A DNA stretch of 59,371 bases from an uncultured Selenomonadaceae bacterium (GTDB lineage: Bacteria; Bacillota; Negativicutes; Selenomonadales; Selenomonadaceae), in the NCBI GenBank assembly GCA_905236285.1, contig CAJOPN010000003.1, positions 1 to 59,371 of the forward strand, given 5' to 3'. Made by a program: the position numbers and the translations under genes. A model generated the notes under the pieces. It was not told the DNA's origin. It worked only from the letters and a program-made list of their open reading frames with translations, and made no database searches. Shown here piece after piece: positions 7,304 through 59,370 of the stretch; within the stretch, counting starts at the first letter, position 1; every line of letters starts with the position of its first letter.

Positions 7304-8478
7304 TTAAGAATTGTCTTTCACTAAAAAAATATCTCCCATTGAGCCAGTTTCTACTCGTAAATTTTTATACTTAAGCAAATCATTTATCGGATACAAATTT
7401 ACATTTTTTTTATCATTATGCATTTCACTAATCATAATAAAATAATCATAGCAATCATTGAGTAACGTAACCATTTTTTCAAACAGTCCGCTCTGATTCC
7501 AAGTCATAGGGTTAAATTCCATGAAGATCGGAATACTGTTATTCATAATTAAATTTTTTGCTCCAATCAAAACTTGAGGTTCAAATCCTTCAGTATCTAT
7601 CCAAATATATTTTATTTCTTTTGGATTAATATTATTTTTTGTGATGTAATCATCGAGTTTTATAATATGAATTGTCTCAGTCGGCAATCCTTCCGAATCA
7701 GGAATAATTGTATTGTGACCTGGATTTGAAGGCGTAATGTGCATTATTTGTTCACTTTCGTGATCACCAAGACCGAAATTTTCAAGAATTGAATCATCCG
7801 ACATGTTATTCAATGCCACATTCATTTTGAGAAGCATATAATTTGTTGAATCAGGTTCAAAGGCAAGTATTTTTAAATTTTTATCAAATTTGTGTTTAAA
7901 ATAAATACAAGTTGTGCCGATGTTGGCTCCCAAGTCTAGAAAATACCCCCCCCCTGATTATTTTCATTATTATAAAATCGTTTTGCAAGAAAATAAAATA
8001 TTTCCATATCATTAGCTGCAAAATTTTCTCTCAAAAGGTAAGTCAATCTCATAATCGCCAAATCTCTTGCAGTAGCTATGTAAGAAAGTCCATCCTTCGT
8101 TGTGCAGGTTATGAATTTGTTGTTACGACGTTCTATATAAAAATCAAGCTGACGATGAATCATTGTATAATTTAATTCTCGCGGCTTAAATAATGTATAA
8201 AATGCTTGAAGATTTGACATCCAGCTTGAATCATCGAGTGCATAAATTATTTTCTCAGATTGAATTTGCAAATCACTCAAAACGAGTTTGAAAGCATCAC
8301 GCATTTTTTGTTCAAAAATTAAAACATAATCCCAAGAGGAATTTACAATTATGGCTCGTTGTTGATTACTGTTTTCAGGTCTTATAACATTAACAACTTC
8401 AATTTTATCGACGTTGAGGAATTTATCAATCCAATTTTTACTGTTGCCGACGTAATCCAGTATCAAAATTTTTGTCAT
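7304..8478 (-). pseudogene. FkbM-family methyltransferase with an N-terminal extension module, split by a G9 tract; candidate phase-variable gene in the OFF frame
   Basis: ORF 7936..8478 ends ...NNQGGGIF*. ORF 7304..7933 continues in another frame as GGG-YFLDLGANIGTTCIYF (SAM-binding motif I). One extra G rejoins them as NNQGGGYFLDLGANIGTT. Confidence 0.85.
7946..7954 (-). repeat. Poly-G tract (G9 on coding strand, C9 on + strand)
   Basis: Plus strand reads aaataccccccccctgatt. Frame arithmetic: CA+nG requires n=7 or 10 for continuity; observed n=9. Confidence 0.97.
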
Positions 8479-37337: not shown

Positions 37338-39938
37338 ATGAAATTAATGGCAGTAACGCCGATGATGCAGCAATATACGGACGCAAAAAATCAATGTCCA
37401 GATTCGCTGCTTTTTTTTCGACTTGGTGATTTTTATGAAATGTTCGGAGACGATGCAAAAATTGCTTCGAAAGAACTGAGCTTGACATTGACTCATCGAC
37501 AGGATCAGCCGATGTGTGGAGTACCTTATCATGCGATTGACAATTACGTTCAAAAACTCGTCAAAAAAGGTTACAAAGTTTCGATAGTCGATCAAACAGG
37601 CAATCCTAAATCAAAAGGATTAACTGAGAGAGCAATAACAAAAGTAGTAACGCCGGGTACAATTTTGACTGACGACACAATTGCAAATGCCGGCAACAAT
37701 TATATAGCAATCGTACTTGAACAGATCGGCGAAGGAATAATGGCAGCGGCTGATATTTCAACGGGTGAATGTTTTTATGGATTGTATGATGGCGATGATT
37801 TTGAGCAAATGATTTTTGATGAATTGTATCGAATTGAACCGTCAGAAATATTAATCGACGGAAATTTTCAAAAAAATTTTCAAAAAAATTTTGATACGTT
37901 TATTGCGTTGAAACTTCCTGAAAGTACAATCACAAAAATTGAAGAGACAAGTTACAAAATGCCGGACATAATTGAAAAACATTTTTCTGAAAATGAAATT
38001 CCGACAAGTCCGCTTGCAGTAAAAGCAGTAACAATTTTGCTGACGTACATTCACAACACGGTAATGACGGATTTAAATCATATATCGAGATTGCGGCGAA
38101 TAGAAATAAGCGATCGAATGATATTAGGATCGACGACACTTAAAAATTTGGAATTGGTAAGAAATTTAAAAGACGGCAGCAAACGAAATACATTATTTTC
38201 GATATTGGATTTTACAAGAACGGCATCCGGAACGCGATTACTGAAAAAATTAATTGAAAGACCTTTGACAGAAATATTGGCAATAGAAAGAAGATTGGAC
38301 GCTGTCGAGGAATTATATAAAAATTATTCATTGAGAACGAAAATTCGCGAATTGTTAAAAGAAATAAGCGATCTTGAAAGATTGATGATGAAAATAGAAA
38401 TCGGCTCGGCGAATCCGATTGACTTGGTTGCGTTAAAAATTTCTCTTAAAAAAATTCCATTAATGAAAGAGGCGATGAGAGAAGTAAAAAGCGACATATT
38501 GATTGCATGTCAAAAATTAAATGATTATGATGAAGTTGTAAATTTAATAGAAAAAGCAATAAAAGAAAATCCGAATAATTTAATACGAGAAGGCGGAATA
38601 ATACGAGACGGATACAATAAAGAACTTGACGATTACAGAAGAATCGCAACGGACAGTAAATCATTATTGCAGGAAATTGAAACACGAGAAAAAGAAACGA
38701 CGGGAATAAAATATTTAAAAATCGGATATAATAAAGTTTTCGGATACTATATAGAAGTGAGACACAGCGGCAAGGATAAAATTCCCGAACATTACATAAG
38801 AAAACAAACGTTGACGGGCGCAGAAAGATATATCACGGAAGAATTAAAAAATTTTGAAACAAAAATACTCGGAGCGCAGGAAAAAATATTTGCAACAGAA
38901 TATAATTTATTTGTTGAAGTGAGAGAGGAAATAAAAAAATATTTAATACAAATACAAGATACGGCGCGACGAATTGCAATGACAGATGTATTAGCAAGTT
39001 TAGCGGAAACGGCGGCGAATTATAATTATATCAGACCTGAAATCAGAACCAATGGAGCAATCGAAATAAAAGACGGAAGGCATCCGCTGGTAGAAAGAAT
39101 TTTAAAAGAAAATTTATTTGTGCCGAACGATACAAATTTGAATCATAAAAATTGCGAATTGATGACGATAACCGGACCGAATATGGCAGGAAAATCAACA
39201 TATATGAGGCAAACGGCATTGATAACGTTGATGGCACAAATTGGAAGTTTTGTACCCGCGAAATCGGCATCAATAACACCTGTTGACAGAATTTTTACGA
39301 GAATAGGAGCAAGCGACGATTTAATAAGCGGACAATCAACGTTCATGGTAGAAATGAATGAAGTAGCACAAATATTAAAATATGCAACAGAAAATTCATT
39401 GATAATTTTGGATGAAGTCGGACGCGGAACCTCAACATTTGACGGAATGAGCATAGCGCGAGCGGTAATAGAATATATCATAAAAAAAATACACGCGAAA
39501 ACATTATTTGCGACGCATTATCACGAATTGACAGACATGGCAGATTCATTTGAAAAAATAAAAAATTATTGCGTGGCAGTCAAAGAAAGAAATGATGAAG
39601 TAATATTTTTGAGACGAATAAAAGAAGGAGGAGCAGACAAATCATACGGGATACAAGTTGCAAAACTTGCTGGACTGCCAAAATCGGTAATGAATCGCGC
39701 CGAAAAAATTTTGAAAGAATTGGAAAATAAATCGGAAGATGAAAATAAAAATTCGGAGACGGAAGAAAAAATTTTTTTAAAAAATTCAAAAGAAGAAAAA
39801 TTGCCGACATTGTTTCAATCGGAAACATTGGAAGAATTGGCGAAAATGGACGTTACGACATTCACACCGATAGAGGCAATGAATATTTTATATAAATTAA
39901 ATGCGCAGGCAAAAAAGGAATTGGGCGAAAATAATTGA
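37338..39938 (+). CDS. mutS: DNA mismatch repair protein MutS
   Basis: TPMMQQYTDAKNQCPDSLLFFRLGDFYEMFGDDA, TGPNMAGKSTYMRQTALI, LDEVGRGTSTFDGMSIA. Confidence 0.97.
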   Translation: MKLMAVTPMMQQYTDAKNQCPDSLLFFRLGDFYEMFGDDAKIASKELSLTLTHRQDQPMCGVPYHAIDNYVQKLVKKGYKVSIVDQTGNPKSKGLTERAITKVVTPGTILTDDTIANAGNNYIAIVLEQIGEGIMAAADISTGECFYGLYDGDDFEQMIFDELYRIEPSEILIDGNFQKNFQKNFDTFIALKLPESTITKIEETSYKMPDIIEKHFSENEIPTSPLAVKAVTILLTYIHNTVMTDLNHISRLRRIEISDRMILGSTTLKNLELVRNLKDGSKRNTLFSILDFTRTASGTRLLKKLIERPLTEILAIERRLDAVEELYKNYSLRTKIRELLKEISDLERLMMKIEIGSANPIDLVALKISLKKIPLMKEAMREVKSDILIACQKLNDYDEVVNLIEKAIKENPNNLIREGGIIRDGYNKELDDYRRIATDSKSLLQEIETREKETTGIKYLKIGYNKVFGYYIEVRHSGKDKIPEHYIRKQTLTGAERYITEELKNFETKILGAQEKIFATEYNLFVEVREEIKKYLIQIQDTARRIAMTDVLASLAETAANYNYIRPEIRTNGAIEIKDGRHPLVERILKENLFVPNDTNLNHKNCELMTITGPNMAGKSTYMRQTALITLMAQIGSFVPAKSASITPVDRIFTRIGASDDLISGQSTFMVEMNEVAQILKYATENSLIILDEVGRGTSTFDGMSIARAVIEYIIKKIHAKTLFATHYHELTDMADSFEKIKNYCVAVKERNDEVIFLRRIKEGGADKSYGIQVAKLAGLPKSVMNRAEKILKELENKSEDENKNSETEEKIFLKNSKEEKLPTLFQSETLEELAKMDVTTFTPIEAMNILYKLNAQAKKELGENN
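37865..37888 (+). repeat. Two perfect 12-bp in-frame tandem copies (TTTTCAAAAAAA) inside mutS
   Basis: ttttcaaaaaaa ttttcaaaaaaa ttttg; encodes FQKNFQKNF. Confidence 0.85.
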
Positions 39939-54956: not shown

Positions 54957-56043
54957 ATGAAATATTCATTGTGCGATGATTTTTTAAATTCCAAAAAAAT
55001 AATTTATCCGTTGGCAAAATATTTATCGCCGTATTTGAAAGGAAAAACAAATTTTACACCTTGGGCAGTAGAAATACATCCTACAGCAAAATGCAATCAT
55101 CAATGTATTCATTGTTCATATAAAGAAAGAAATTCAAATCGTGTCGAAATGCCGACGGAAGTTTTTCAAAAATTAATAAATTCTTTAATAGAAATGAAAA
55201 TCAGAGGCGTTTATTTTTCGGGAGGCGGCGAACCTTGCACTTATCCGGAACTTCCTTCAGCGATAAAAAAATTGAATGAAAACGGGATCGAAGTTGCATT
55301 GGTTACGAACGGGACATTGTTTGAAAAAAATGGTTTAAATGAGATTGCAAATCATATAAATTATATTGCTGTATCAGTTCCCAGTTGTACAAAAAATATT
55401 TATGAAAAAATAACAGGTCGCGACTTAATGGAAAAAATAATTTCTTTGCCCAAAAATATAAAAAGCAAATGGAAAAATGAATCGCCGATAATCGGAGCAA
55501 GAGTTGTAATAACAAATTTAATTGCGGAAGAAGTTCCACATATTTTGAATACTCTCAGCAAAGAAGTAGGGGGGGGGGTATGATTATGTTTTGTTCAAAA
55601 TCGTTCGTGATTATGAAGATCGCGGACTCGGTTTATCTGAAGAAATGGTCATAAAATTAAAAAATGAAATAAAAATTTTAAGCGACGAAGGAAAAATAAA
55701 TCATCGTTTTACAAATCTTGATAAAATTTTTTCTTATCGCAAGCCTTATAATCCTGAAGGCAAATGTCATATAAATCGAATGGGATTATTGGCAGTCGTT
55801 ACGCCTGAAGGTGATGTTTATCCCAACATTGCAGAAATTGGAAATGACGAATTTTGTGCAGGAAATTTAAGTAATTTGCCTTTTGAAAAAATTTGGAACG
55901 GCGAAAGACATTTGCAAGTCAAAAATAAATCCGATGAACAATGGCAAGAAGGAAAATGTAAAAATTGTCGTGCTGTTTCATATAATCTCAGAATAAATGA
56001 TATTTTATTGGAAATTCCGATTGAGGAAGATCCTTTCTTGTAA
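54957..56043 (+). pseudogene. Radical SAM/SPASM protein split by a G10 tract; candidate phase-variable gene in the OFF frame
   Basis: ORF 54957..55583 carries CNHQCIHC and FSGGGEP and ends KEVGGGV*. The next frame from the tract reads GGG-YDYVLFKIVRDYEDRGLGLSEE...SPASM-like Cys region to 56043. G9 or G12 gives one continuous ORF. Confidence 0.87.
55569..55578 (+). repeat. Poly-G tract (G10)
   Basis: aagaagtaggggggggggtatgattatg; GTA + nG + TAT needs n divisible by 3 for continuity; observed n=10. Confidence 0.97.
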
Positions 56044-56099
56044 ATTTTTTATGTCATCACTTTCTGCAAATTTTTTTCTTTCGGAAAGTGGTGATTATT

Positions 56100-57104
56100 T
56101 TGCATTACAAAAAAATATTGGTTACAGGCGCAGACGGATTTATCGGTTCGCATTTAACCGAGACTTTAATTCGTGAAGGCAATAATGTAAAGGCATTCGT
56201 TCAATATAATTCTTTCAACTCATGGGGCTGGCTCGATTGTACGGATACCGAAATAAAAAAATCTCTGGAGGTATTTTCGGGAGACATTCGCGATTCGCAC
56301 GGAGTCAAAACAGCGATGAAAGACTGCGATTGCGTAATAAATTTGGCGGCATTGATTGCAATTCCTTATTCTTATCATTCGCCGGATACTTATATTGATA
56401 CAAATGTCAAAGGTGCATTGAATGTTGTGCAGGCGGCACGAGATCTAGATATTTCAAAAATTGTCCAGACCTCAACTTCTGAAGTTTATGGAACGGCGCA
56501 ATTCGTACCGATAACCGAAAAACATCCTCTGCATGCTCAATCACCGTATGCAGCAAGCAAAATCGGAGCCGATCAAATTGCAATGTCGTTTTATAATTCA
56601 TTTGGATTGCCGGTTGCAATAATAAGACCTTTCAACACGTACGGACCGAGACAATCGGCAAGAGCAGTAATTCCGACGATTATAACGCAAATCTTAAACG
56701 GAAACAAAAAAATAAAATTGGGAGCAATTTCACCTACTAGAGATTTTAATTACATCAAAGATACCGTTCAAGGCTTTATATCCGTTGCAAATTCGGAAAA
56801 ATCAATCGGCGAAGTTATAAATATCGGAAGTAATTTTGAAATTTCAATAGGCGAAACTGCGAAACTCATTGCCGAAATTTTAAATGTCGAAATTGAAATT
56901 GAAACTGATGAAATAAGATTGAGACCTGAAAAAAGTGAAGTCAACAGGCTTTGGGCAGACAATTCAAAAGCAAAAAATTTATTGAATTGGCAGCCGAAAT
57001 TTTCAGGAAAAGACGGAATGCGGAGAGGTTTAAAAGAAACGATCGAATGGTTTTCAAATAACGAAAATATTAAAAAGTACAAGGCAGATGTGTATAATTT
57101 ATGA
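56100..57104 (+). CDS. legB: LegB-like NAD-dependent 4,6-dehydratase (extended SDR)
   Basis: KKILVTGADGFIGSHLTETLI, TSTSEVYGTAQFVPITEKHPLHAQSPYAASKIGAD, IRPFNTYGPRQSARAVIPTII. TTG start preferred over the ORF-track start at 56088. Confidence 0.85.
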   Translation: MHYKKILVTGADGFIGSHLTETLIREGNNVKAFVQYNSFNSWGWLDCTDTEIKKSLEVFSGDIRDSHGVKTAMKDCDCVINLAALIAIPYSYHSPDTYIDTNVKGALNVVQAARDLDISKIVQTSTSEVYGTAQFVPITEKHPLHAQSPYAASKIGADQIAMSFYNSFGLPVAIIRPFNTYGPRQSARAVIPTIITQILNGNKKIKLGAISPTRDFNYIKDTVQGFISVANSEKSIGEVINIGSNFEISIGETAKLIAEILNVEIEIETDEIRLRPEKSEVNRLWADNSKAKNLLNWQPKFSGKDGMRRGLKETIEWFSNNENIKKYKADVYNL

Positions 57105-58288
57105 CTAATGAAGAAAAATTTTTTATTGAAAATATCAGAAAAAAATTAAAACAGGCTTTGAATGCAGAAAATTTTATTCCATTGCATGAACCGAATTTCA
57201 GCGGCAATGAAAATAAATATGTCAGCGAATGTGTAAATACCGGATGGGTATCTTCAGTCGGAAAATTTGTTGATTCATTTGAAAAAAATTTGGCTGAATA
57301 TACCGGAGTAAAAAGAGCAGTAGCAGTCGTCAACGGAACTTCGGCACTTCATATAAGTTTAATTTCAGTCGGAGTTAAGGCGAATGATGAAATATTAATT
57401 CCGGCTCTTACATTCATAGCAACAGCAAATGCAGTAACTTATTGTAATGCGATTCCTCATTTCGTTGATAGTGCAGATGATACATTGGGAATTGATCCGA
57501 TTAAATTGGAATCTTATTTAAGAGAAATATCCGAAATACGAAACGGATTTTGTTACAATAAGTTAACCGATCGCCGAATTTCTGCAGTCGTTCCAATGCA
57601 CACTTTCGGTCATCCCGTTGATATGGAAAAATTAATTGAAGTCGCTGAAAAATATAATCTGGTTATCGTCGAGGATTGTGCAGAATCAATCGGATCATTT
57701 TATAAAAATATCCACACGGGAAATTTCGGAAAAGTGGCGGCAATAAGTTTTAACGGAAACAAAACAATTACGACAGGAGGAGGCGGTGCAGTTCTTACGA
57801 ATGATGAAGAATTGGGAAAATTTATAAAACATATCACGACTCAGGCAAAAATACCTCATCGTTGGGAATTTTCTCACGATTATATCGGTTACAATTATCG
57901 AATGCCGAATATTAATGCCGCTTTGGGTTGTGCACAGCTGGAACAATTAAATAGTTTCATTGAGAAGAAAAGAAAACTTGCGGTGAAATATAAAAATTTA
58001 TTCCAAACGATTGAAGGAATTAAATTTTTTGAAGAACCGAAATTTGCCAAAAGTAATTATTGGCTCAATGCAATTATTTTAGAAAAGAAATATCAACATT
58101 TGAGAGATGAATTACTTTCAGAATTGAACGACAACAATATAATGTCACGTCCGATTTGGAATTTGATGTATAAAATGAAAATGTATGAAAATTGTCCGCG
58201 AATGAATTGTGAGACGGCTGAAGAAATAAATCGGAGACTAATAAACATTCCGAGTAGTGCAAAATTGGCAGAGGATTTTAAAAAATGA
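57101..58288 (+). CDS. legC: LegC-like DegT-family aminotransferase
   Basis: FIPLHEPNFSGNENKYVSECVNTGWVSSVGKFVDSFE, VVNGTSALHISLISVGV, ISFNGNKTITTGGGGAV; follows legB. Confidence 0.87.
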   Translation: MTNEEKFFIENIRKKLKQALNAENFIPLHEPNFSGNENKYVSECVNTGWVSSVGKFVDSFEKNLAEYTGVKRAVAVVNGTSALHISLISVGVKANDEILIPALTFIATANAVTYCNAIPHFVDSADDTLGIDPIKLESYLREISEIRNGFCYNKLTDRRISAVVPMHTFGHPVDMEKLIEVAEKYNLVIVEDCAESIGSFYKNIHTGNFGKVAAISFNGNKTITTGGGGAVLTNDEELGKFIKHITTQAKIPHRWEFSHDYIGYNYRMPNINAALGCAQLEQLNSFIEKKRKLAVKYKNLFQTIEGIKFFEEPKFAKSNYWLNAIILEKKYQHLRDELLSELNDNNIMSRPIWNLMYKMKMYENCPRMNCETAEEINRRLINIPSSAKLAEDFKK

Positions 58289-59370
58289 AAATTGAGGAAT
58301 TAAATAAATATCTTGGAAATATTCAAATGACGATAGTCGAGGCAATGCAGAGAATCGATAAAAACAATGCAGGAATTTTATACATTGCCGATGAGCAAAG
58401 AAAATTAATCGGAAGTTTAACGGACGGAGATATAAGAAGATGGATAATCAAAACAGGCGAATTGACTGGAAAAATTGAACAAGCAATGTTTTGCAATCCA
58501 AAATTTTTATTTGAAGAAAATTATAATTACGAAACCGAAAAAAATTTTTTTTCATCAAATACTCTGCAGTCTGTTCCGATAGTCGACAAAAATAAAAAAA
58601 TCATCAATATTATATTCAGAAATAAAAATGCAATAAACGTTCTCAACAAAAATAATATCTCACTTTCAAAGATTCCGATTATAATAATGGCAGGCGGAAA
58701 AGGCACCAGATTATATCCTTATACAAAAATTATTCCTAAACCTTTGATTCCGATCGGTGATGTTCCGATTATCGAAAGAATTTTAAATCGTTTCAGAAAA
58801 TATGGAGCAGAAAAATTTTTTATAACCCTCAATCATAAAAAAGAAATGATAAAATCATATCTCAATGAACTTAATGTCAATTATGAAATTAATTACGTTG
58901 AAGAAAATGAGCCGCTCGGAACGGCAGGAAGCATAAGACTGATTGATGAAAAATTTGATACTCCGATCATTGTGACAAATTGTGATATATTGATTGAAAC
59001 AAATTACGAAGATATTTTTTTGCATCATAAAAAATTTAAAAATGCTTTGACGATTGTATCCTCATTAAAAAATACAACGATTCCTTACGGCGTGATTCAT
59101 TCTCGTGAAGAAGGAATAGTATCATCGATGGAAGAAAAACCGATAATTTCATATCTGATAAATACGGGAATGTACATAATAAATGCGGAGCATATTGAAA
59201 AAATTCCGAAAGATGAAGTTTTCAATATGACAGATTTGATTGACAGACTGATTAAAGAAAATTATAAAGTCGGAATATATCCAATTAGTGAAGATTCATT
59301 TTTGGATATGGGAGAATTTGAAGAAATGAAACGAATGGAAGAAAAAATTTACAGCAATGTGATTCGCTGA
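58285..59370 (+). CDS. Nucleotidyltransferase with N-terminal CBS pair (PtmE-like sugar-1-P guanylyltransferase)
   Basis: CBS-like N terminus (GILYIADEQRKLIGSLTDGDIRRWI) followed by IIMAGGKGTRLYPYTKIIPKPLIPIGDVPIIERIL; follows legB-legC. Confidence 0.82.
   Translation: MKIEELNKYLGNIQMTIVEAMQRIDKNNAGILYIADEQRKLIGSLTDGDIRRWIIKTGELTGKIEQAMFCNPKFLFEENYNYETEKNFFSSNTLQSVPIVDKNKKIINIIFRNKNAINVLNKNNISLSKIPIIIMAGGKGTRLYPYTKIIPKPLIPIGDVPIIERILNRFRKYGAEKFFITLNHKKEMIKSYLNELNVNYEINYVEENEPLGTAGSIRLIDEKFDTPIIVTNCDILIETNYEDIFLHHKKFKNALTIVSSLKNTTIPYGVIHSREEGIVSSMEEKPIISYLINTGMYIINAEHIEKIPKDEVFNMTDLIDRLIKENYKVGIYPISEDSFLDMGEFEEMKRMEEKIYSNVIR

Follow-up and report, generated by a model that had tools for sequence, protein, structure and literature searches.

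The best-known cases of phase variation of nonulosonic-acid genes by changes in poly-G tracts come from Campylobacter, Helicobacter and Neisseria. In C. jejuni such variation is established for the nonulosonic-acid genes of flagellin, among which the tract gene Cj1295 is needed for one modified form of pseudaminic acid (PMC3068675). Radical SAM enzymes have also appeared among candidate switches: Table 1 of PhasomeIt places two in the core phasome of C. fetus, CFT03427_1545 with G(9-10) and CFT03427_1558 with G(9), both as sequence-based predictions (PMC6321876). A first-pass annotation of the DNA described here, which knew of no established example of phase variation of a radical SAM enzyme, had put the point too strongly in light of these two predicted cases. 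Here we analyse a stretch of 59,371 nucleotides (the window) that makes up the entire contig 3 of a metagenome-assembled genome (MAG) from an uncultured member of the Selenomonadaceae (2.07 Mb, 199 contigs, 81% complete), and in which a radical SAM/SPASM gene is interrupted by a tract of ten Gs next to genes of legionaminic-acid type. In our judgement this gene is very probably a translational contingency locus and belongs to a set of about 49 putative slippage switches that the genome contains. A literature search of one collection returned no paper joining phase variation, homopolymeric tract and Selenomonas, and a search on legionaminic acid together with radical SAM gave no match.

Results

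The features of the window to which we refer are:

7304..8478, minus strand: FkbM methyltransferase-type gene split by G9 (7946-7954), OFF as assembled, joined frame of about 390 aa
53121..54938, plus strand: sulfatase-fold, phosphoethanolamine-transferase-like membrane protein, 605 aa (PF00884, 132.8 bits; nearest NCBIfam models CptA/EptA, with scores under their cut-offs)
54957..55583, plus strand: radical SAM half as assembled, 208 aa, with CNHQCIHC, ending in GGGV and a stop (PF04055, 64.8 bits)
55569..55578, plus strand: G10 tract, putative slippage switch, one of 49 G9-G12 tracts in the genome
55579..56043, plus strand: SPASM half, read in the -1 frame over 154 codons and a stop (PF13186, 32.1 bits; pN/pS 0.32 against the Selenomonas ruminantium ortholog)
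56088..57104, plus strand: LegB-type NAD-dependent 4,6-dehydratase (TIGR04180, 535 bits, cut-off 475)
57101..58288, plus strand: LegC-type aminotransferase (TIGR04181, 553 bits, cut-off 420)
58285..59370, plus strand: CBS plus nucleotidyltransferase protein, PtmE-like by layout (PF00483, PF00571)

Reading the tract bears out the first-pass proposal that a G10 run at 55569-55578 interrupts a radical SAM/SPASM gene, this length being a single assembled consensus from a MAG. The open reading frame at 54957-55583 contains CNHQCIHC and closes on KEV-GGG-V and a stop after 208 aa, as had been described. When the tract is cut by one G, the frame instead reads KEV-GGG-YDYVLFKIVRDYEDRGLGLSEE and runs on past GKCKNC until it stops at 56041-56043, and the full enzyme is restored by G9 (361 aa) or G12 (362 aa), again as proposed; G8 or G11 leads to a stop after about 230 aa. 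The -1 frame 3' of G10 stays open for 154 codons, an opening that none of 5000 shuffles of these bases reproduced, and the window holds two runs of at least nine G or C where about 0.013 would be expected by chance. As in a contingency gene, a long homopolymer lies within the coding sequence and changes of single units toggle the frame.

The two halves correspond to separate domains in a Pfam search, with Radical_SAM found in the first half alone and SPASM, above its cut-off of 21.5 bits, in the second half alone. Both the CxxxCxxC motif (C46/C50/C53) and a GGE-type motif, SGGGEP, fall inside the Radical_SAM domain, as befits a radical SAM enzyme. The tract sits between the two domains, directly before a segment that aligns with 'FRQISVEPV' of CteB, and because the 208-aa product is without this stretch, it has probably lost the end of the radical SAM core fold besides SPASM. 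The earlier description of the OFF product is therefore right about the missing SPASM half, but the catalytic half that is made is probably incomplete as well. The seven-cysteine SPASM set that would hold two auxiliary clusters is not present in the window protein: only C270, C334 and C337 stand at expected places and are kept in the S. ruminantium ortholog, and the 'GDVYPN' stretch has no usual SPASM cysteine, with Asn290 where CteB 'GDxYPC' has its own, so the enzyme has at most a Twitch-like set. CteB (5wgg), which aligns with the profile over residues 36-347, and BtrN (4m7s), which aligns with the C-terminal part, are the nearest solved relatives by sequence; the substrate of CteB is a peptide and that of BtrN an aminocyclitol. 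No NCBIfam model scored at or above its cut-off for the window protein, and a structure of the S. ruminantium ortholog predicted without an alignment had a mean pLDDT of 35.5, too low to be of use.

What the enzyme might do is suggested by its neighbours. The gene starts 18 bp 3' of the phosphoethanolamine-transferase-like gene, and its ON stop is followed after 44 bp by the start of LegB, then by LegC and the CBS-nucleotidyltransferase gene at which the contig ends. The operon of S. ruminantium Z108 that carries the ortholog (G247; NZ_FOQK01000004.1, L011/L039) is ordered FkbM-like, radical SAM, LegC, NeuD, NeuC/LegG, NeuB/LegI and CBS-nucleotidyltransferase. Both genes belong to leg operons, the one with LegB and LegC 3' of it in the window, the other with LegC, NeuD, NeuC and NeuB around it, and an accessory step on a legionaminic-type sugar or its glycan is probably the likeliest role. 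Elsewhere in the genome (L072, G000:C190) we noticed a NeuB-NeuC pair in which the NeuC-type epimerase gene has an in-frame G9 tract, which means that a core nonulosonic-acid gene may also switch. The same arrangement admits a reading in terms of operon polarity, whereby some 500 bases between the early stop and legB would go untranslated and expression of the leg genes would fall, so that the target is the whole sugar and not a single modification. Tight gene order, the tract in the NeuC-type gene on another contig, and promoter- and terminator-like matches that are no more frequent in the region than in shuffles would all suit polarity, but legB has its own start close behind the ON stop, and the tract falls within the coding sequence of an enzyme that is conserved. 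We consider polarity possible though rather unlikely; it is compatible with a switch in the enzyme itself, and both can hold together.

Three radical SAM genes in the genome have tracts: that of the window and one each on C84 and C149. The C149 gene (L066:1953-2962) has a C10 tract that, like that of the window gene, parts Radical_SAM from SPASM, and is OFF as assembled. The C84 gene (G000:C84:10579-11709, L053) is in frame with G10, and with its orthologs (L196-L202, L219, L082) makes nine copies in eight species, all with the tract at the same codon. Tract lengths in these copies run from 7 to 11, with G10 in the window's own genome (G000), G9 and G10 in the two copies of G026, G9 in G005, G207 and G032, G8 in G203, G11 in G219 and G7 in G029; five of the nine, that of G000 included, are ON and four are OFF. 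A further ortholog, in G196, is tract-free. Comparing tract lengths in related genomes, an approach that the first-pass annotation had suggested, shows between-species variation at this sister gene, which we judge a better study subject than the window gene, whose ortholog has no tract. It is also possible that ribosomal or transcriptional slippage on G10 yields some full-length enzyme from the OFF allele, making the tract a leaky rheostat, since long homopolymers can cause such slippage, but tract length varies widely at the sister gene, which is in keeping with switching at the DNA level, and we think a rheostat unlikely. Tract position is kept in another gene (L051) across three species at 52-56% amino acid identity, and other homologous genes have tracts at differing places, which points to repeated tract gain. 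Homologs whose tracts lie elsewhere differ by replacements and by insertions that vary in size, which weakens the case for insertion of a poly-G element of fixed length.

The window tract belongs to a large set. The genome has 49 runs of G9-G12 (29 G10, 16 G9, 3 G11 and 1 G12), where about 0.46 runs of at least nine would be expected, and no G6 or G7 runs were found in the 214 kb of genome examined. Forty-one of the 49 are flanked on both sides by long coding frames, and the coding strand has G in 34 of these and C in seven; 14 of the 41 are in frame (ON) and 27 out of frame (OFF), matching expectation for random lengths, with the calls for the other tract genes hinging on the choice of the longest flanking frames. 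The tract genes, annotated from one half apiece, are mostly of surface-glycan type: glycosyltransferase families 2, 4, 9, 10 and 11, FkbM and other methyltransferases, and LuxC, AMP-binding, epimerase, aminotransferase, DegT, PIG-L, DUF4422 and DUF1919 types. As expected of contingency genes, the tracts are far in excess of chance and, judged by inspection, concentrated in genes for surface structures. One of them is the FkbM-type gene at 7304..8478, of which a homolog in G029 (46% identity across the full length) has its tract at a different position. All 66 genomes of the genus that were examined contain G runs of at least nine, from 3 to 88 per genome, and the other genera of the family mostly have 0 to 10 per genome, with exceptions that include g36 and g45. 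Loss of mismatch repair is rejected given the presence of MutS1 (37356-39902 in the window) and MutL, whose genes look intact, and in this the genome contrasts with Campylobacter and Helicobacter.

An error of assembly or sequencing, with a real length of G9 and a gene that never switches off, has to be weighed here, because homopolymers are error-prone, the assembled length is a consensus and many of the tracts are close to the ends of the MAG's contigs. However, the tract is real regardless of its exact length, tract lengths in the genome spread from G9 to G12 with a third in frame, and the sister radical SAM gene likewise has ON and OFF orthologs in genomes that were assembled separately, so we regard such an error as very unlikely.

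Relatives show further forms of the phenomenon. G003 (2.4 Mb, 100% complete) has 88 G runs of at least nine, mostly of 11-13 in the 20 stretches read, and many of its tracts split genes near the middle, adjacent similar genes included. Several relatives (L139, L157, L179, L180, L224, L226) have poly-G between TTGACA-like and TATAAT-like elements, as in G004 (L139), where a G9 lies inside the 17-bp spacer of TTGACA-17-TATAAT; this arrangement suggests phase variation of promoter spacers in relatives.

Whether the window gene is still under selection was judged against the Z108 ortholog, which is the same enzyme in a nonulosonic-acid operon, beside LegC, and is intact at 69% identity; unlike the window gene it has no G tract, and it is three residues shorter at the site where the window protein has GGG. 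The 203 codons 5' of the tract give an amino acid identity of 0.704 and a pN/pS of 0.29; for the 154 codons 3' of it the values are 0.669 and 0.32. Coding constraint therefore persists 3' of the tract, and since a long-fixed OFF gene would have lost it there, the gene is not decaying; the equal pN/pS on both sides rules out pseudogene decay. The first-pass annotation had named accumulated stops in the downstream half of relatives as the mark of a true pseudogene, and with the ortholog intact and both halves constrained that reading fails. Even a recently inactivated, non-switching gene, although in line with the OFF state as assembled and with a search of the genus's 65 other genomes that found no ortholog, is highly improbable given the equal purifying selection in both halves, the lack of any further stop or frameshift, and a lesion of exactly the kind that a reversible locus would have. 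The viral contigs searched contained no ortholog either, and close matches among the genome contigs searched came only from S. ruminantium. That the only close ortholog found carries no tract counts against slippage switching at the window gene, and the intact-looking MutS1 and MutL weigh the same way.

The bases next to the tracts are not random. In the window's genome, an A precedes 47 of the 49 tracts and TA follows 45 of them, as compared with 12% and 4% for runs of G3-G5, and the 49 tracts occupy all three codon phases and both strands (G000: window, L042-L076). The flanks in G003 (L224-L243) are mostly YTC before and CAR after, and those in G029 (L155-L174) AAC before and TAG after. Across G000, G003, G029 and G198, the flanks form a species-specific consensus that is independent of frame and strand, and runs of 6-8 G are nearly absent.

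Discussion

Slippage phase variation at the window gene is strongly supported by indirect evidence from sequence, namely the constraint across the tract, the set of 49 tracts in genes of surface-glycan type, and the ON and OFF forms of the C84 gene. The first-pass proposal that the gene is phase-variable gains from all three, with a single assembled length known at the window tract itself. In living cells, replication slippage in the G tract would add or remove one G. Alleles with G9 or G12 would be ON and give the full radical SAM/SPASM enzyme with an insert of Gly3 or Gly4, and alleles with G8, G10 (as assembled) or G11 would be OFF and give truncated, presumably inactive proteins that lack SPASM. 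The ON enzyme would probably modify a legionaminic-type nonulosonic acid, or the glycan that carries it, in an accessory step, and through switching the cells would come to differ in their surface or flagellar glycans.

The scale of the tracts across the genus, together with their conserved flanking bases, has no explanation from the known type of switch. We speculate that a sequence-specific process in the genus seeds or maintains runs of 9-13 G at preferred short sites, as the flank consensus (AANTA-G-TATT in G000, YTC-G-CAR in G003, AAC-G-TAG in G029) is independent of gene, strand and frame and runs of 6-8 G are nearly lacking, but we would give this idea only a small chance of being correct.

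If the window gene does switch, poly-G phase variation of nonulosonic-acid genes extends to a genus of the Selenomonadaceae, and radical SAM chemistry joins the switchable glycan toolkit of this lineage. The tracts also offer a set of switches open to experiment in bacteria that have kept both MutS and MutL. The poly-G phasome of Campylobacter is similar in having tracts of 9-10 G in many surface-modifying genes, among them two radical SAM enzymes of MoaA/NifB/PqqE/SkfB type (PMC6321876). Those bacteria are Campylobacterota, whereas the window gene is from the Selenomonadaceae (Negativicutes), and the likeness is one of enzyme class and tract. Cj1295 resembles the window gene in being a gene with a homopolymeric tract in a nonulosonic-acid flagellin locus, but it encodes a different protein, with a role established through mutants and mass spectrometry (PMC3068675), whereas the role of the window gene is a prediction from sequence. 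Set beside Cj1295 and the C. fetus radical SAM genes, the window gene is best seen as a known type of switch in a new lineage and not as the first radical SAM case.
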